Part shown: in pieces, positions 1 to 13,755 of the stretch | How the letters are laid out: each line of letters begins with the position of its first letter | How positions within the stretch are numbered: position 1 is the stretch's first letter | From: Saururus chinensis | Lineage: Eukaryota > Streptophyta > Magnoliopsida > Piperales > Saururaceae | NCBI GenBank assembly: GCA_035235625.1 | Contig: CP141146.1 | Span: 4,954,501-5,018,500 of the forward strand | Reading direction: 5' to 3' | DNA length: 64,000 nucleotides | Program-made: the position numbers and the translations under genes | The notes under the pieces: model-generated | Database searches by the model: none | Told to the model about the DNA's origin: nothing | The model's input: only the letters and a program-made list of their open reading frames with translations

Positions 1-1552
1 CTGTTGGATACTTTCTCCAACATATGACATATGAAAAGTTGAAAACTTGCCTTTCACAGGTATTGCCAACGGGAAGCATATGATGTACATCATCCCATCA
101 GGTCCTCATGCAATTCACAAACTCCTCTTTCAATTTATACTGAGCCGGAACTAAAGAATGAGATGTGTTATTAATTTTGTTGCATGGTTTGAACTGCTGC
201 CCACAGGCAATGTTGTGAGTTTTCTTAATGTTCGCAAGCAACCAACTAGTGTTGATCATCTCAAGGTTTGAGAAGTGATATCTGGATGGCCATTTGTGGG
301 CAAATTTAATTGCAGTATTGATCAATATCTGAAATCCGTCGAATAATGCTAATTTTTCCAAGTACTATGTTTTTATTTATAATCCATCCAATCCTAAGGG
401 TAAAGAACGATTAGTATCAGAAATACTCAAGCAATACGGGGCACCTAAGTCTGATAATTAACATGGACTCTACATGAAATTTGGTAGAAACCAAGCCATT
501 AATCAAGATGCCCTTACTCCAAGAAAATTTATAAAAAAAAAAAGAGGAAGATAATGAAAATGGACTTTAGATGCTGTTGACGAGATGAGATGAGGATGGC
601 TTAATATTTATTGTATTGCAAGAGAAATTACTAAGAAAAGAATCGTAACTGTGGTGTAGGGTTGTCTCCAACGTTCTATTATTTGCTTAGTTACTAATTG
701 TCATTATGTGATCTTTGCTTAAATGGTTATCTTTTGTCACAATATGCTTCTCAATGCAACTTAGGCTTCTAGTATTACCAACAGGAAAGTCAATTTCCAA
801 TCTTCGTATGGTAAAATTAAGCACCATTTGGCTTCCTGGCGTGGACTTAACGCCACAAACATCTGAGTTCGCTGTTTATCAACGGCCCCGGAATATGGCT
901 ATCAGCTTCCCAAAATCCGATTCCCCATCTTGTCTGAGACTTTATGGAAATATATAGCTACGGCTGCCTTTCCATCTTTAACAGGCAGCAAATGCCTCTT
1001 GGAACTGCCACACCCCTCATCCAATCCATAATGACAAAATTTCAATATATAGTTAATCTCCTTAACTACTACTATTTGCTTAAACTTATGTGGCTTAAGC
1101 TGCAGTGATGTTTGGTTTCTACGTCCATAATTGTACTTAGACAAGATAATTGACCTCCTAAGTTAACTTGTATTTTTTCTTAAATTTAAATATTCCTAGA
1201 GATTGCTTCCTAAGCTGCACTACAGCTAGCAGAGGCCTTGTAGCCGCAAAACTGACTCAATCATTTCTTCCTGGTTGAAGCAGTTTGATCATGATTTGGA
1301 GCCTAGCTATGGAAGAGTTTTTCCAACTTCTTTAGCCGAGCCTATAAGTTTTGTAACAGGAAAAATTCTTCCCTTAATGACAACATATATATGGTCAATA
1401 CAAAGTCACCACTTACAATGCGAAAGTTAAGTAAACTTTTGCTGGAAGATACTGCGGACATATTCTGGGTCCGAAAAGCTAGCGCGTACTGCTTATTTCC
1501 ACGCATTTTCATGCTCCTGTTCCTTATAACTTCTCCCTCTCCCTTCTTCCTC
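1..1552. other. intergenic, no gene seen
   Basis: AT-rich DNA upstream of the first gene. The short open frames here show no family resemblance, codon pattern or splice structure that I recognise. The last 200 bases are the likely promoter of the HIPP gene that follows. Confidence 0.5.
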
Positions 1553-1559
1553 TATATAA
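1553..1559 (+). promoter_or_regulatory. TATA box of the first HIPP gene
   Basis: A TATATAA-type sequence lies about 60 bases upstream of the ATG at 1617, following a pyrimidine-rich stretch. The spacing leaves room for a short leader. This is a sequence match only; no transcription start is known. Confidence 0.55.
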
Positions 1560-1616
1560 GCAAAGCAACTTCTCCATGCCCTCCTGATCACCTTATACAA
1601 TACTACAACAACAACA

Positions 1617-2245
1617 ATGTTGGGATGTTTTGGGGAGAGAACAATGCCGAACGCTATGTCTGTAAGTTCTTCAAAAATCCTCTTATCCTAATTAAAGTTC
1701 TATAAACCAGCACAATCAACTCTCAATGGTTTAAAACTGCTTATATGTCTCAAATCATGTTCATTAGATTGTAGAGCTTGGCGTTCACATGGACTGTGAA
1801 GGCTGCGAGAAGAGAGTCAGGAAAGCAATCACCAAGTTAGATGGTAAGAGCCTGCACAGATGCTATATACCTCAATCATGTGTCATCAATGAAGCCATGT
1901 TTCTAATGGTTTTGCATTGCAGGGGTTGATAGCGTGGAGATTGACACAGACAAACAGAAGGTAACAGTGACGGGATACGTAGACCGGAACAAGGTGCTCA
2001 AGGTGGTGAGACGTACGGGCAGAAAGGCCGAGTTCTGGCCGTATCCCTACGACGGGGAGTACCATCCCTTTGCACTTCAATATCTGGAGGACTCCACCTT
2101 CTCCTCTACGTACAACTACTACAGGCATGGCTACAACTCAGGCGTCCAAGGCTACTTCCCGGACCCTGCATACTCTACCATTGTGGACGATGACACCGCC
2201 GCCATGTTTAATGATGAAAATGTCCATGCATGTACCATCATGTGA
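1617..2245 (+). CDS. heavy metal-associated isoprenylated plant protein (HIPP), one HMA domain
   Basis: Three exons (1617-1661, 1768-1843, 1923-2245) with GT-AG introns give 147 residues. One HMA fold covers about residues 16-80, with the metal-binding motif MDCEGC at 23-28 followed by the usual KRVRKAI helix. The protein ends in CTIM, a CaaX box for prenylation, which defines HIPPs. The middle is rich in Tyr, Pro and Asp. Family members bind soft or transition metals and sit at membranes or in the nucleus; many respond to stress, cadmium or pathogens. The short first exon and the intron positions match the small single-HMA HIPP type. The ATG was chosen because it follows the TATA box and joins in frame to exon 2. 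The metal and partner cannot be read from the sequence. Confidence 0.9.
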
Positions 2246-3901
2246 TGTGAGAACTGATCAACATAGGCAAATATGCGATAAGAAGAACATTGGTCATGGC
2301 TGCAGTCGGTAGAGCTGGGGGTTTTTACTTTGTGGTTCATGGGTGACAGAGGGTTTGCTTGGTAGCTTCTGTTACTTGGTACAACAAGCAAGAGTAAATG
2401 AAGTGGTGGCCAAGTAATGCCTTGGGTGGTCGCTTAATGTCGATTGTCAAAGAAACATTGCTGTCTGGGAGTTGCTTTCAAGATAACGGCGCCCTAATTA
2501 TATAATTAAATAAAGTTTAAAAGAGGGTTTTACTTAAAAACTTCTCTCTTTCTGTCTGCCAGCAATCCTGGATTATGATTGGACAAGAAGTATATATTAA
2601 TACCATGTAGTACCATATTGGTTGGAATATATGCCAATACAATATGGAACCCATCAATCAAAGTTCAGTGGCTAGAAACAAAACCTGCAATGTATTTGAT
2701 TTGAGTCAGATTAGAAAAGAAAAAAAGACTAATTAGGATTAATAAACTAATACTGTAGTCCACAGATCCCATAATTCAGAAATTTTATGATGTCATAGTT
2801 TGACATAGTTCAATCTCCTCTCCAACTTTAAACTGATCCATAGTACGAACCTTATAATATTACCGTTCTTTGAACCATAACAAATACTTTTCCACAAAAA
2901 TGCCCCACAACAGATTGCTTCTATAATAAATTCAGTCTTCTGGTACTTTGAACAATTGTGCGGAAAATACTCAGATGATCATAGGCTGAGGGACAATCCT
3001 CACAAATAAATATGACTTTTATTCACAAATCAATATTCTTAATTAATCGTGCTAAACAAGCTTAATGACGATCGATTACAACGTGTTTCATGGACATGAA
3101 TTAATTAAAAGTCAATGGGCAACTTGGTGTAGCGTCTGCAGGCATATGCTCCTATGAGTGTGATTTGTTTGTTGTGATCAAATGCTTAAGTCCATAATGA
3201 TACTTCAACTTCTATTTTCTGTCTTGCTTCACTTTGTGTGGATGTTAAAGATATCACTTAGAGAAGGTAGCACTCCATTATCAGCCATAGAAGTACCAAC
3301 ATTCAAATGTTTGATTCGCTAGCTTTGCCATGGCACCGATAAGTTGATAGATAAGAGCATGTGGGCGAATGGATGTTGGATTGCTGGTCCCTCTTGTCAA
3401 TAATCTTGGAGGAATCCTATTCTTTTGTACCAAATGGAGAATTGAAGTACTTAATTTAGGGCAACATTGAAATAGTTTTGTACATATGCAATGTGCTTCA
3501 GTAGGAGTATTTTTGAAGTGTGGGCTTGCAATATGTTGGGCGGTGTAGGACCCACATGATGGAGCAAGCAGGTGCCTCAGCTAGCTAAACTACAAGAGTG
3601 TATCCAATTCCTGACATGTTGTGAGGAAAGCAAATGGAAAGCATCTGAATTTCTGAACCAGGCCGGTAAGACAAGGATTGCTGTGGTTGGCTAGCTACCA
3701 ACTGGATGGGACAATATTCTCCCATGTATCATGCTAGCTTATGCTCATGAGATCATGATGCTCTTCCAATTGGAATTTGGAGAACGAAAGATAAACAAAA
3801 GCACATAGACTAGAGAAAAGAAGTCACGGTTTTGTAACAATTTTTTTTCATTACAAAAAGATTTTGACACCAAAGTTCTAATACGCACAATCAAACAGAT
3901 A

Positions 3902-5912: not shown

Positions 5913-7341
5913 CAGGGTTGCATCTTGGGTAGGGTGGGGTTGGGTATTATAGTACTTGACCCTACCCAAGATAGAACCCGAGATTGCAGTACTCGACCTT
6001 ACCTAAGATATAACCCGGAATACTAAAACCCTACCTGACCCTAGATAAAGTCTGAAATAAATTAAACTCTTGGCAATTTCAATCAAAACAAAAATACTCA
6101 TACGCTAATTTTTCGAAGTGAGAATAAACACTAAAATATGAAATAATCAAGTATAATTCTTCAAAGAAATAAATATTTACACCTAAAATCTTACTTTGAC
6201 ATCTAAATATAAAAAAAAAAAACTCTTACTACTAAACCTGGAATGGAACAATCAAATAACTACAGTTTGCATATGCCCAAACTCTTACTATTAAACTTTG
6301 AATGAAATAATATATAACATGCATACACCCAAACTCTTACTATTAAACCTGGAATGAAACAATCAAATAGCTGCATATACCCAAAATTCACACTATAATA
6401 GTAAAATTTCACCTGCTTATAAAAAAAATAAGAAGAAACTCCAACATCTTCAAATCAAACACAAAATAAACATATGAATACAAAAAGCAAAAAATGATAT
6501 TAGCTTCAATGTAGGGAAAAAAATCAAACACAAAATTAAACGAGTACAAAAAGCAAGAAAATGAAATTAGCCTCAATACAAGAAAAAAAATCAAATACAA
6601 AATTAAAAAAGTAAACTTCTTTGGAGCATACCTTATGAGTTAGATTGTACACACCTTCGCTACTCCAGCCTCCACATACCACAGAGACAGAGGTTGGTCG
6701 TCCACTTTGGGCTGGCCGATCAAGGTGAAAGAGGGGTGTGGATGGTGAGGATGAGGAGGATTTTTTTGGGTAGGCCGTAGACAGGGAGGACAAAGGGGGA
6801 GGTCGGCCGGTGACGGGGAGGAAAAAGGGGGAGGCCGGCAATGACAAGGGGGGACGAAGGGGGTGAGGATGGGGAGGATTTTTTGGGTAGGCCGTAGACA
6901 GGGATGACACAAAGGGGGAGGTCGGCCGGTGAAGGGGAGGCTGGCTGGCCGCAGACTTGGAGGAAGAAGGGGGAGGCCGGTCAACGACGAGGAGGCTGGC
7001 AGGCTGCAGATGTGGAAGAAGAAGGGGGAGACTGGCAAGCTGCAGACGAAGAGGACGAAAGGGGGATGCCGGCAAGCTGCAGACAAGGGGGATGAAGGGG
7101 CAACCAAGGAGGCCGGCAAGCCAACAATGAAGGGAGGAGGACAAATGGGAATGTCGTTGTTGCGTAGCTGTAAGGGAGAAAGGGTATTAGGGTTTGGGTT
7201 TGTTGTTTGGGTAATGAATTAAAGCAACTGGGCTAGGTTTCGGGTTTTTCTAATTAAAGTTGACCCGACCCAAAATTGATATGTTTTTTTTTTAATACCC
7301 TACCCAGTTTAGGTTGGGTTCGGGTGTTTTGTGTAGCCCTA
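5913..7341. mobile_element. non-autonomous hAT-type transposon, 1.43 kb
   Basis: The left end CAGGGTTGCAT and the right end TGTAGCCCTA are imperfect inverted repeats, each followed inward by GGGTAGGG/GGTTGGGT-type subterminal words. The flanks carry an 8-bp duplication, GGACGGAG (5905-5912) and GGACGGAA (7342-7349), with one mismatch. An 8-bp duplication with CAGGG termini is the hAT signature. No transposase is seen. The interior is AT-rich except for a GC-rich minisatellite at about 6700-7130, whose repeats create long but meaningless open frames. It belongs to a different family from the neighbouring element at 7895. Confidence 0.7.
6740..6950. repeat. tandem GC-rich repeat of about 111 bp inside the hAT element
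   Basis: The sequence 'gggtaggccgtagacaggga' with its flanks occurs twice about 111 bp apart, each copy ending in 'gaggtcggccggtga'. Shorter 'gaggccggcaagc' words continue to about 7120. On the minus strand this gives a Pro/Ser-rich repetitive frame that I do not regard as a gene. Confidence 0.6.
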
Positions 7342-8179
7342 GGACGGAAGAAGTAATAGTGTATGGTTCTAAAATAAATTAATTGTAGAGCACTCGTATC
7401 AGTTAATACGGTCTTCCATGGTCTTATTATGCTTTAAACAAAATATTTTAATAATATATTATTAGTTATAATATTTTTTATGTATATCAAAGGGTTTACG
7501 ACCATTTTAGTACAAACTAAGTATATTATCAGTGTGTACCTATATCTATAGTCATCGATACTATCATCCATATCGATAATGTCTTACATACTCACAAAAA
7601 GCTTAGAAGAAACAATGTCAAGATGCTATTAACATTTAAGATTAACAGTACACATTATCAATCTCATGTATAAATGGCCTTAGGTATTTCTTAAACTGGG
7701 CTCATAGTGCATTAAAATTTTTTCCCTATTTTTCATATTTCTGAACATATATTGCAAACATGTCTGGTGTTGTATGAGAGGTCGCAAATGGCTATTTGGT
7801 ATGAGTAACAGTGTTAAACAGCGCCATGACCGTGTGCAGGGACGAGAACCGTTAAACTTAGTGAGAAATGCGGAAGGCAAATGCTAGCCATGGATAGGGG
7901 TGGTAATCGGGCCGGGCTCAGGCGGGCCCGAGCCCGTTTATTTAGAGCCCGAGCCCGTTAAGCCCGATTACTCACAACCTATTTAAAGGCAAACGGTCAT
8001 GAACCGGTCACGGGCTCTTAACGGGCTCTAATTAAATTCAACTTAAAAAGATTTATTTTTGGCCTTATAATAAGATGTAACTTAAATATATCGTAAAATT
8101 TGATTATTTGGGTTAAATATTCATTAAAAATTATTATTTTATTATTTTTAAAATATAAAATTTTAAAACATACTTAAAA

Positions 8180-8450
8180 ACATGAAAGACCGTATCGACT
8201 GATATGTATCAATAAAATTTTTATTGTTACCAAAAGTTGATACGTATCGGTCATACAGTATCAATATGATCGATATGTATCGATACGGTATATAAAAATA
8301 AATTTATTTAAAAAATATTTTTTTAAAAAAATTCTTAAAAAAACACAATTCAAATATATTGTAAAATTTGATTATTAGGGTTAAATATAATTTACATAAT
8401 TATTTTTTTTACATATAGTGCTCCACAACTATGCATTTATTTAAACACAT
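8180..8450. repeat. diverged AT-rich dispersed repeat, copy 2
   Basis: Same ordered words as the copy at 5490-5880: 'cggtcata...gtatcgat', an A/T tract, 'ttacataatta' and 'caactatgcatttatttaaacac'. It lies within the hAT-like element, either as a nested insertion or as part of the element itself. Confidence 0.4.
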
Positions 8451-9689
8451 AATTATGACCCACGGTCTTATTATACTTTAAAAGAAGTATTATGTTATTT
8501 TATTTCTTCATACTCACTACCATTATTACGTTCTTTTATCCTTTTTTCAGTTAAGTATTTCGTCATAGCTAATAATTCCTTCAAAACTTTCGTCTTGCTG
8601 ATTTCAATGGCCTATTCAACATTAAAGGAGTTGATTATTAGAATTCTTTATTATTTGACATTGGTTATTTGGCGTTGATCTGTATATAAATTCTATGTGG
8701 ATGTCTTCAATAAATAGGTAGCATCTCTAGACCATTTTGGGTTCGTAGAAACTATATATCTCAACCTTTTTTTTTTCTTTTTTTTTCTCACAAGAGATTC
8801 ATTTGCTGCAGTTATATATTGAGCTTTACATGAGACTATTCAGTTGAGAAATGGGTATGTATAGCCCGCCTACGTTATAACATGAGACGGCCACTAATTA
8901 TTAGTTCCAAACTAGTATTCAAGCTTTAACTATATATTAAGTACAAGCTTCAACTAGACAGGAATCAGGTACAACCGTTATGAAATAGTTCAGTCTGTCA
9001 CTTTCTTCCCATCTCCCAACATAAACAACGTCTTTCCACATTGCAGGTTAGGACAAAAAATAACTATTCATATTGTATGTATTTTAAATTCAAAAAGTAA
9101 GCCCCTAAACAAGTATATGTGTCAAAAGATTTATGACAAAGATAACAACTGAATTCGAATTGCACCAATACATTGAAAAATTTATTAGAAGAGACTAGTG
9201 CTTTAGAAGCCATATTGGGCAACGACTAAATCCTCTCTTCCATTAGCAAGGCTTGCAGGCAGTAGGGAGGCTATTCTAAGACTTCATATATGCCCATAAT
9301 GTCATTCAAATAAGCTTTCTGCAGAGAGCGACAAAAACTAATACCATATAGCTTTTTGACCAGATTGTAAAGGAGGTCAAGGGGTAGATCTGCAAGAAAA
9401 AAGATCTGAATCAGAGGAATTTAGCATGAGAAGGTACTAATCCAATCACCACATCCAAAACTTCTAGTATTCAAATCCTAGGTCATTACTTGTCTAGAAA
9501 TGCTTGAAGAAAAGTGGAAGAAGAAGATATAAAAAATCTCTAACAACATTAAGTGCTATATAAACATGCATGCATTTCCCTTTATTTAAAAAAAAATCCT
9601 GCATCTCTATATGAAAAATAACCTATAATGAATAAAGATAGGTAAAATACAATATATATACAAAAGATTGACTTTTCAAAAGATTAACC

Positions 9690-11050
9690 ATTTGGAAGAT
9701 TTGGTCTTGCATTAGGGGATGTACTTGAAGTTAGGAGACCCGTGTTGGCTCTACCTTGAAGGTGGCTCAAATTCATGTCACATACTTTTTTGACCTTTTT
9801 CTCTTGAACCTGCCAAAGTTAAAAGAAAAACAGAATAACTTACAAAAAAAAAAAATTAAATATGTCATAGAAGGTTCAGTGAAATGATTAAGCTGAACCC
9901 ATTCTCTTAAAATAAAACTTGAATCAGGTGTATGATAATGGCGATGGTGGCGCCTAAATTTCCAATTTCTTAGTTTTACAGGATCTGATCGAAATGATAT
10001 AAAATGCTAATTGTATGTAGTTCTAAAAAAAACCTTATCTCCACAACCCACCCTTACAAAGGTAAAAATCTCATATCTGAAAAAAGAAAAAGTTGCACTC
10101 TATAGGGGAGGCATCTTAAAAAATGTTGATTCTTCACATTGGGACAGTTCACTTGAAGAATTGATTGAATTAAAATTTTTACAAAGATAGCATGTGATAA
10201 TGTTTAACAGTCTGTTCTCTAAAAAATATTATCAATACAGAACTAAGTTTTTACAGGTGAAGAACCAACTAACTACTTTATTACCTTCCAGAACTTAATT
10301 GTTTTATCGTTAGTCAATAGAAGGAAAAAAGCACCATTGGCTGTTTGACACCATCTAATCTTGTTTGATTAGCCATTGCATGACGATTACCATTGCTTCT
10401 CACATCTAATGATTATAGTACTCTTGACATAGCGCATACTGCAGAGCCCTTTACAAATTACTGTCTAAACAACAATCCAGTTTTTCTGCAACTGCTTTCT
10501 AGCCCAAAAGCATATCTTAAAACAATAAAAAGGTGCAAGCTAAGGTGCTCTCCATGACCCCTTGGTGCACACCGAGTAACACAGATAAAGCAATAGAGAC
10601 ACACTCATTTCCATAATATCGCCTCAGTAGATCCATCTTAAAAATCATCCATTCGTATGCCACCAGGATCATTATTCCCATTCAGTTAAGAGCTCAACCA
10701 TTTATATACAAGCCTACAACTTTCTTACCAGTCACATCGAGTCAATTCAATAAACCTCAGTGCGCTTCCTTGTCCTCCTATAATATTACCAATATATACA
10801 TATAGAAAGGAAAACCTCCCCTTCACCTCGAATGTAACTTGGAAGAACGGATCATGGATTTTAGAAAGAAAAAGGGAATAAAAATGACGCAAAAAACATC
10901 AAACAAAATGGATGAGAAAATACAAAAGGCCGCACCTTCCTGCACGTCCTCCCCAGCCGCTCGTTTGCCAAAAACCTGCGAGAATTTCCACTCGAGAGGC
11001 GGCGGCGGGCCGCCGCCCGGCGCATCGTCCCTGTCTCCCACGCCGTCCAT
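9690..11050 (-). pseudogene. captured fragment of protein phosphatase 2A B55 regulatory subunit gene
   Basis: Three pieces match plant PP2A 55-kDa B subunits in the right order on the minus strand. Exon 1 is 11050-10936: MDGVGDRDD..., then PLEWKFSQVFGKRAAGEDVQE, ending in a GT donor at the phase expected after VQE. A later exon at about 10370-10285 encodes [20 protein letters not shown] then FWK, with a GT donor. The next exon, at 9809 to about 9690, encodes VQEKKVKKVCDMN then a Ser/Pro/Asn-rich stretch, after a good AG acceptor. The expected second exon (VDIISAIEFDK...) was not found between them, and one base appears to be gained at the start of the second piece. The WD40 remainder is absent. 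The fragment sits wholly inside the hAT-like element. B55 subunits direct PP2A to its substrates; this copy cannot do so. Confidence 0.8.
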
Positions 11051-11872
11051 ATTCCCTCACTCCCGAAAAATCGGCCGGTCCAATCAGCCGCAGCACATCC
11101 AAATCCAGACAATTCCCAGGAGCTACAAAGATATCATCGCCGCGATTGTCCACAAAGAGTTCGCCAAAATGGGGGCTTTGGCCGCCCTCCCCAAACGGAC
11201 TTGGGCGAAACGATGATTGAAGCTTACGATAGAAGCTCGAGGATCTCCTCCACCAGGCTCTGCGTCGTCCGCAGTGATATGATCCAGTCGCCGCAGAGTT
11301 GAAGCCGGTGATCGAAGAGCTCCTGAATGCACTCGGGCGACGGCGAAGCACTCTTGGGCGAAAGAGTGCCTATATTCAAAAACGTAACGGGACTTATCGG
11401 GCTCCCGTGGCAGAGCCCGAGCCCGATTCATTTTACTACAGCCCGATAACAACCCGTTTGTTAATACTCAAACGGGCTCGGGCTAGGGCTGGGCTGGTCA
11501 AACGGGCTCAAGGCCCGATTATCACCCCTAGCCCTGGATAAGGTTGAGGTAATTGGTCGGACCCGGGTCGCTACAGGAGTTGAGCTGCCCCTAGTCACAA
11601 ACCGTGTCCGCTGGTTCGGACACAACTTACGACCGAGTTTGTCCGGTCCGGAGCCCAACCGAGAGAGGAAGGCATTGGCCCTGATCCGCAAAGCGGACCC
11701 TGTGAGACGGCAACGAGGCGGAGGCGGAGGCGGAGGCGACCGGCCGGGACCGACCCATCCGCTTACTCGATTCGATTCGCCGGCCCTCCATGCGCCGCCG
11801 TCGTTCCCGCTTGGGTTAGCCGGAGGAGGATCGGAATCCGATCGGAAAGCAGAGGCCAATGCGAGAGAGAAA

Positions 11873-11962
11873 ATGGGGGGCCACAACGACGCCTTCATGC
11901 GCAACCGGGACGCCGCCGTCCAGGCCCGCACTAAGACCCAGAACCGCGCCACCGTCCAGAGC
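11873..11962 (+). pseudogene. fragment of U1 snRNP 70K first exon
   Basis: The ATG at 11873 opens MGGHNDAFMRNRDAAVQART then KTQNRA, which closely follows the start of plant U1-70K (MGD..DAFLRNRNAAVQARTK.QNRANVLQ). Similarity then fades: after 'TVQ' the frame runs into unrelated sequence, and the LKLIGQSHPTGL segment, RRM and RS tail are missing. The GC-rich DNA from about 11640 to 11872 may be the matching 5' leader. The fragment lies about 340 bp outside the right end of the hAT-like element and about 190 bp upstream of the LPAT1 start codon. How it got there is not clear. Confidence 0.65.
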
Positions 11963-12156: not shown

Positions 12157-13755
12157 ATGGAAGCTTTGTCGTCAACCTTCAAGCCCCCACTCTCTCGTCC
12201 TCGGCTCGCCAAGCCCCTCAAGCCGAAGTCCCATTTGTCCGTCTTCAACTGTAAGTTAGTTTATTTTCATTTCTGTGTTTGGATATCAAAACTACTGCAA
12301 ATTGTTGACGTTTCTCTGGACTGATTAGGCTCCCTTGAGCCTTTTCGTGGGTTTCCAATACAACCCATGTCCCGAATGGATCGAAGTTTCGGATTCCCCT
12401 GCAATTTCCTTTACGAAATGCCACTGCCAAAACAGTGTAGAACACGGAAAAACGTTATTGTAAGATTGCAAGCTATCGGGGTTGGGTCTCCAGATGCTGA
12501 TGCTGCTGCTGCTGCTGCTCATCCGTTGCCAGGTTTCCAATCCCAAGCTTTATTGTTTTATAAATCACTGTTCTGGTAAATGTATATCAATCGATTACTT
12601 TCTCGAATTATCCATGTGTGATAAATTAATATGTACAGGTGTAGTCATAGACATGGCATTTGTGATATATGATTGAACAATGATATTAATATGATGAAGG
12701 ACATTGCATTTATCCTTTTTTGAAATCTCATTGATATATTAGAAAATCACTACCGATTTTGTTCAGATAAAAATTTGTTGCAGGAGCTCAGCTCACTTCA
12801 AAGCTTCGGGGAATCTGCTTCTATGCCGTGACTTCCATTCTTGCATTGTTTCTCATTGTGGTTATGTTTGTCGGACACCCATTTGTGCTTCTATTTGATC
12901 GGTACAAGAGAAATTTGCATCACCAGGTTGCTAAAATTTGGGCTGCCCTAACCGTGAAGCTGTTCTTTCCAATTGATATTGAAGGGTTGGAGAATTTGCC
13001 CCCTTCAGAGACTCCAGCAGTATATGTAGCGAATCACGAGAGTTTTTTGGATATCTACACGGTTTTGATTCTTGGGAGAAGTTTTAAGTTAATCAGCAAG
13101 ACTGGAATTTTTCTTATTCCTGTTGTTGGTTGGGCGATGTATATGTTGGGAACAATCCCTATAAGACGAATGGACAGTAGTAGTCAACTGGTATTATTTG
13201 TTTCTCTTTTTCTCATCCACCCTTGTAATCCTCCTTCTTTATTGTCATGAATGTCTAATGTGGAACTACTTTTAGGATTAAAAATTTGGATTACTGTGGA
13301 TGAAGGTATGTCTAAAGCGCTGTATGGATATAATTGGAAAAGGAGCCTCAGTGTTCTTCTTTCCCGAAGGAACTCGGAGTAGAGATGGTAAAGTGCGTCC
13401 TTTTAAGGTGAGGTCATTACACAAATTGTTGTATCTGGAATGAGCTACACGAGCTTTGATGTTAAGCATATTTTTCCCCATATAATAATGGTTTGCTAAC
13501 TGTTTTAACTTATTACATGTTGGTATGTAGAAAGGTGCATTTAGTGTAGCAGCAAAGGTGGGAGTACCAGTAGTTCCTATTACGCTCATTGGAGCTGGTG
13601 AGCTGATGCCTCCAGGAAAAGAAGGAATACTGAACATGGGGTCTGTTAGAGTAATTATCCACAAGCCTATTGAAGGAACTGATGCAGAAGTATTATGCAG
13701 TGAAGCAGAAAAGGTTATATCAAATGCTCTGAGTCCTGGTAAAGAGGCAGGGTAG
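12157..13755 (+). CDS. LPAT1: plastid 1-acyl-sn-glycerol-3-phosphate acyltransferase (LPAT)
   Basis: Five exons (12157-12250, 12329-12532, 12784-13190, 13306-13407, 13531-13755) give 343 residues; all junctions are GT-AG and in phase. The enzyme acylates lysophosphatidic acid to phosphatidic acid, the second step of plastid glycerolipid synthesis. The first 100 or so residues are Ser/Arg/Pro-rich without acidic residues near the start, fitting a chloroplast transit peptide; they include a poly-Ala run from a GCT microsatellite (about 12494-12517). A hydrophobic segment follows (about 112-135). Acyltransferase motifs are intact: NHESFLD (183-189, catalytic His/Asp), GTIPIRR (222-228), FPEGTRS (254-260) and VPVVPITLIG (281-290). 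This matches ATS2/LPAT1-type plastid enzymes in length and motifs. The upstream DNA contains the U1-70K fragment, so the promoter is unusually short or partly of foreign origin. Confidence 0.92.

Follow-up and report, generated by a model that had tools for sequence, protein, structure and literature searches.

The window analysed here (a stretch of 64,000 nucleotides from Saururus chinensis, contig CP141146.1) contains a non-autonomous hAT element of 3636 bp at positions 7895–11530, which is devoid of transposase coding sequence and carries DNA of a PP2A B55 subunit gene between its ends. Near-perfect termini bracketing 3.6 kb and an imperfect 8-bp target duplication had been proposed in a preliminary description, and both were confirmed. 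The terminal inverted repeats of the window element and its family are short and of the T/CAGGG type that is typical of the hAT superfamily. The flanking octamers (GCCATGGA and GCCCTGGA) are equal at seven of eight positions, with one mismatch. Termini arising by chance were ruled out by the family of related elements and their duplications. All features are collated in Table 1, in which positions within the element are marked "el".

Table 1. Features of the window element, its flanks and the captured B55 segment (window coordinates).
Feature	Position	Strand	Remarks
Left target-site duplication	7887–7894	no strand	sequence GCCATGGA
Left terminal inverted repeat	7895–7913	+	TAGGGGTGGTAATCGGGCC; same type of end in family members
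Left arm, native hAT DNA	7895–9533 (el 1–1639)	+	87% identity to C5 element 1–1709
Captured B55 segment	9531–11272 (el 1637–3378)	-	1.74 kb; from C4:8930072–8932474
Internal join	9663–9668	-	88 bp of parent replaced by 4 untemplated bases
B55 exon 5, 5' part	9668–9809	-	own acceptor precedes; in-frame stop present
B55 exon 4, 3' part	10285–10365	-	with donor site
Internal join	10365–10366	-	601 bp of parent missing; no shared bases
B55 exon 1 coding part, complete	10936–11050	-	start codon and donor site
Right arm, native hAT DNA	11269–11530 (el 3375–3636)	+	matches C5 element 6766–7044
Right terminal inverted repeat	11512–11530	-	GGCCCGATTATCACCCCTA ending at 11530; near-perfect inverse of left end
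Right target-site duplication	11531–11538	no strand	sequence GCCCTGGA

The surroundings of the element hold further features. A repeat of ~250 bp with many genome copies lies at window positions 7340–7600. On the other side, a short stretch (11783–11957) displays 73–90% identity to three places, of which one is on C2 and two are on C3, each similarity ending at 11957; it resembles, as we assume, the start of a U1-70K-like protein. Coding pieces (open reading frames) follow at 12828–13755, ~1.3 kb from the element, and presumably correspond to a 1-acylglycerol-3-phosphate acyltransferase.

Other copies with the same termini were found when the organism's own genome (516 Mb, 11 contigs) was searched with the whole element as the query: at least 68 matching pieces were obtained (40 of 1678 candidates scored). 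Twenty regions were fetched, 17 of which match the arms of the element, while one is the B55 parent gene and two are B55 paralogues. Elements with both ends in hand were scored for target duplication (14 in total: the window element, L017, L020–L025, L027–L030, L035, and the C5 element described below); L019, L026, L033, L034, L043, and L044 were left out of the scoring for want of one or both ends. A perfect 8-bp duplication was present in eight of the 14 (L017, L021, L022, L024, L027, L030, L035, and the C5 element). The duplications of the window element (7/8) and of L023 (6/8) are imperfect, that of L020 counts as perfect only when a change in an end base is tolerated, and a clean 8-bp duplication was not seen in L025, L028, and L029 (three of the 14 scored). 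In L044, right-arm sequence lies inverted near a family left arm (positions 3399–3843).

The longest relative fetched (C5:22233811–22240854, L018 together with L036 and L037) comprises 7044 bp and is flanked by a perfect 8-bp duplication (GCCTTGTT). Three open reading frames were located on its minus strand; according to Pfam, one encodes a zf-BED domain (PF02892) and another both hAT-like_RNase-H (PF14372) and Dimer_Tnp_hAT (PF05699). These domains, together with the 8-bp duplications, bear out the earlier designation of the carrier as hAT-like. The transposase coding frame is interrupted, and this copy is therefore probably inactive. In L019, 967 bp are missing from the transposase region, so that both transposase-bearing relatives fetched are interrupted or partly deleted, and L020 lacks the transposase-containing stretch. 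Identity between the right arm of the window element (el 3377–3636) and positions 6766–7044 of the C5 element amounts to 83%. Because both arms match the ends of the C5 element and the interior with the transposase is missing, the window element is best regarded as a deletion derivative of this hAT family that was refilled with other DNA. It can be assigned to the Pack-TYPE elements of the hAT superfamily (Pack-hAT), i.e., non-autonomous elements whose ends enclose DNA of a host gene, here a B55 segment with introns and an identified parent.

With the B55 segment as the query, all six candidates were scored; they comprise the window, a copy on C1, the parent on C4, and B55-like loci on C10. 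The segment aligns with the C4 parent in three pieces at 91–95% identity, introns included (intron 1 in part, and intron 4). The translated exons 1–7 of the parent, joined by eye, gave PP2A B55 alpha chains as the best PDB match (E 1.2e-66). Of the earlier claim of at least three B55 exons with splice sites, the B55 content, the introns, and the location on the minus strand stand; exon 1 alone is complete, however, and exons 4 and 5 are partial. Similarly, the donors of exons 1 and 4 and the acceptor of exon 5 are present, whereas the acceptor of exon 4 is lost; the 601-bp deletion took out exons 2 and 3 together with the 5' end of exon 4. Exon 1 is retained with its start and 222 bp of upstream DNA. 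The phase is 1 at its end and 0 at the start of exon 5 (as read from the alignment), so a direct splice between them would shift the frame. Coding capacity for a complete WD40 propeller is absent. The B55 piece is thus regarded as passive cargo, and no B55 protein is expected from it, because the frame is broken by the partial exons 4 and 5 and by the stop in exon 5. The 10 kb retrieved around the C4 parent, with flanks of ~4 kb and 3.5 kb, contain no match to the 7044-bp element. A plain gene duplication as the source of the B55 DNA in the window was ruled out, since the parent runs on at both sides without hAT arms.

A second B55 carrier (L017, C1:15031061–15034145) has the same outer joins as the window element and a perfect target duplication (TTTGGCAC). 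It runs through the internal join with the four extra bases in the same way as the window copy and additionally lacks el 2163–2614 and el 3066–3138 of the captured part, the latter loss amounting to 73 bp within exon 1. The 601-bp deletion may have come before or after the two copies split, the loss of el 2163–2614 covering the 601-bp join. That the outer joins of the two copies are identical while their duplications differ indicates that the B55-carrying unit was mobilised as a whole. An empty site, to which the preliminary description had also looked, was found in the same genome for the C1 sibling: a duplicated region on C5 has a single TTTGGCAC and no element. The outer flanks of the sibling are 85% and 81% identical to this region, which contains ~0.8 kb of extra DNA starting ~30 bp left of the site and is thus no clean duplicate at greater distance. 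For the window copy no empty site was found through its flanks in its own genome, the left flank being repetitive and the right flank having only short partial matches (98–175 bp) elsewhere.

Differences between the copies and the parent were counted over the captured part. The window and C1 copies are separated by 13 differences in 1186 sites (1.1%), against 98 in 1716 between the window copy and the parent and 52 in 1170 between the C1 copy and the parent (4.4–5.7%). In a three-way comparison over 1169 sites, 45 set the parent apart, seven the window copy, and four the C1 copy, and at two sites all three differ. As these 45 sites distinguish the present parent from both copies, either the capture predates the split between the copies, or the DNA was taken from a donor other than today's C4 allele, perhaps a different allele or a duplicate since lost. 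The arms of the two copies differ at 37 of 1631 sites on the left and at one of 251 on the right. That the left arms diverge more than the captured part hints at a later exchange or uneven mutation. Among 200-bp bins, el 800–1000 (window 8694–8894) has the most differences between the two B55 copies (12/200).

Further cargo was identified in other family members. L021–L024 carry a multi-exon aldehyde dehydrogenase (ALDH) segment, the parent of which lies at C4:23011346–23013870; the Pfam family Aldedh was found for open reading frames of L021 and L024, and at two further places on C2 part of the segment adjoins a right arm. A segment matching C2:6442832–6446615 is common to L027, L029, L030, L034, and L035. 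We tentatively take it to be ABC1-like from a motif of the KxGQ type; searches of Pfam and PDB with this gene returned no match. Four of these five elements also hold most of a segment matching C1:3523016–3524203, L030 has a short end of it, and L026 holds it as well. The C1 locus may be a gene or another mobile copy.

The interior of L028 (C8:5001506–5005210) is a patchwork that matches six other loci and includes a piece of the family's own interior. The tiles between its arms match, in order, C1, C10, the family interior or a C8 copy, C6, C10 again, C5, and C7. From position 955 to 3490, neighbouring tiles are at most 8 bp apart; beside the left arm, 41 bp have no assigned source. Tile 1923–2394 is repeated in several places of the genome. 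Parts of tile 2768–3490 recur with 96–99% identity at C5:6.75, C4:8.33, and C3:26.03 Mb, ~4 kb or less from family arms; this tile may therefore have come from another family member, and not every tile need represent a separate capture.

Gene-carrying elements (the window element, L017, L021–L024, L027, L029, L030, L034, and L035) and transposase-bearing elements (C5 and L019) stand at 11:2 in this sample, a ratio that is biased, the sample having been picked by likeness to the window element. These observations lead to a broader proposition, for and against which we see the chances as evenly balanced: the family would be a habitually gene-capturing lineage, in which repeated template switching draws on unlinked loci (six or more donors for a single element), the resulting chimeras are remobilised and amplified, and gene carriers come to outnumber transposase bearers.

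The joins were inspected for bases common to both partners. At the left outer join, AAA (3 bp) is common to the arm and B55; at the right outer join, CCGC (4 bp) is common to B55 and the arm of L024, or GC (2 bp) if the arm of the C5 element is used. In a simulation of random joins (200,000 pairs, arms from L020), a shared total of ≥7 occurred in 0.66% and of ≥5 in 4.1% of cases. One ABC-type join shares 3 bp, whereas the 601-bp join has no shared bases and the 88-bp join has four extra ones. No exact overlap was found at two ALDH joins, which is attributed to drift or lost variants. The microhomology supports template switching in a suggestive rather than a strong manner, because only three of the seven joins measured exactly (the B55 right join in two ways) share bases.

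We consider it likely that the window element is a non-autonomous Pack-type hAT that gained its B55 DNA by template switching and was subsequently moved in trans. The process would start with the repair of an excision gap, or with a stalled fork, within a hAT element. Synthesis would leave the left arm at 2–4 bp of shared sequence, enter the B55 gene on C4, copy B55 DNA, and return to the right arm, the transposase being skipped; the chimera would then be transposed by transposase made elsewhere. Template switching is favoured because the 10 kb retrieved at the parent lack a match to the 7044-bp element, the outer joins share bases, and L028 is tiled from several loci. Gap-filling and fork-switching models have been described for Pack-TIRs in the accessible part of PMC8277862.

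The B55 segment could also have been enclosed by two neighbouring hAT insertions on either side of it, which, after losing their inner ends, transposed together as a unit. The orientation of the arms fits two elements of the same direction, and fusion of neighbouring insertions, a model published for Pack-CACTA and further Pack-TYPE elements, is proposed in the available text of PMC8903248 for Pack-TYPE elements of all DNA superfamilies. We nevertheless regard such a fusion as unlikely: the 10 kb at the C4 parent are without match to the 7044-bp element, both outer joins share bases, and a patchwork of several loci such as that of L028 is hard to build in this manner. Still far less probable, to the point of being nearly dismissed, is the entry of the B55 piece into an existing hAT element as a retrocopy or another transposon. 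The two internal deletions do show the piece to be an imperfect copy, but its introns are retained, no poly-A or duplication was found at its borders, and the interior of the 7044-bp relative is gone on both sides rather than just interrupted.

A different question is whether the captured piece acts on the host, be it through a chimeric transcript, small RNAs directed at the parental B55 gene, or an influence on the acyltransferase-like gene downstream. Exon 1 is kept with its start and upstream DNA, the identity of 91–95% to the parent would permit matching by small RNAs, and the acyltransferase-like coding pieces start near 12828. The loss of the exon 4 acceptor, the in-frame stop in exon 5, and the absence of 73 bp of exon 1 from the C1 sibling argue against such a role, which we judge improbable.

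The value of the locus lies in a clear case with donor, carrier, joins, a second copy, and the empty site of that copy within one genome, by which capture models for cut-and-paste transposons become comparable; the patchwork of L028 speaks for repeated template switching rather than for a fusion of adjacent insertions. That a hAT carrier holds a multi-exon genomic segment was confirmed, but the earlier view of this as less usual was overstated: judging from the accessible portions of the reports, capture with introns has been published for hAT elements of maize and grapevine, as has hAT capture in animals. Multi-exon capture by hAT elements (maize Ds, grapevine Hatvine-6, and Pack-hATs) is, by these accounts, already in the literature, and the window element adds another case. 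Donor, carrier, sibling, and empty site seem less commonly found together, and so do several captures within one family.

Among the known systems, maize Ds2-22 contains two exons of an IAA hydrolase gene with the intervening intron, while Ds-l4-354 contains a ZmMybst1 fragment with intron sequence; the available text of the source (PMC3260210) calls gene capture by hAT elements rare and cites faulty break repair as its suggested origin. As described there, these elements resemble the window element in being hAT elements with 8-bp duplications and intron-containing gene fragments from another chromosome; they belong to another hAT family and genome, whereas the window family shows a sibling copy and further captures. 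Grapevine Hatvine-6 is a hAT family with variable interiors that often match gene introns and exons (PMC2528002, as far as the accessible text extends), much like the family described here; its elements are described in that text as having a common transposase coding sequence, whereas the window element has none. Pack-hATs, which as non-autonomous hAT carriers of gene DNA are alike to the window element, were included in a survey of maize and rice. This survey, in the part available, favours the fusion of neighbouring insertions (PMC8903248), whereas the window element is better fitted by template switching. For animal Pack-TIRs (208 of 370 of which are hAT), the excerpted account gives a median join microhomology of 2 bp, mostly single copies with multi-copy cases being rare, and more often a parent on the same chromosome (PMC8277862). 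The window element shares with them the hAT carrier and the short microhomology at the joins and, unlike most of those covered in that account, has its parent on another chromosome and exists in two copies.
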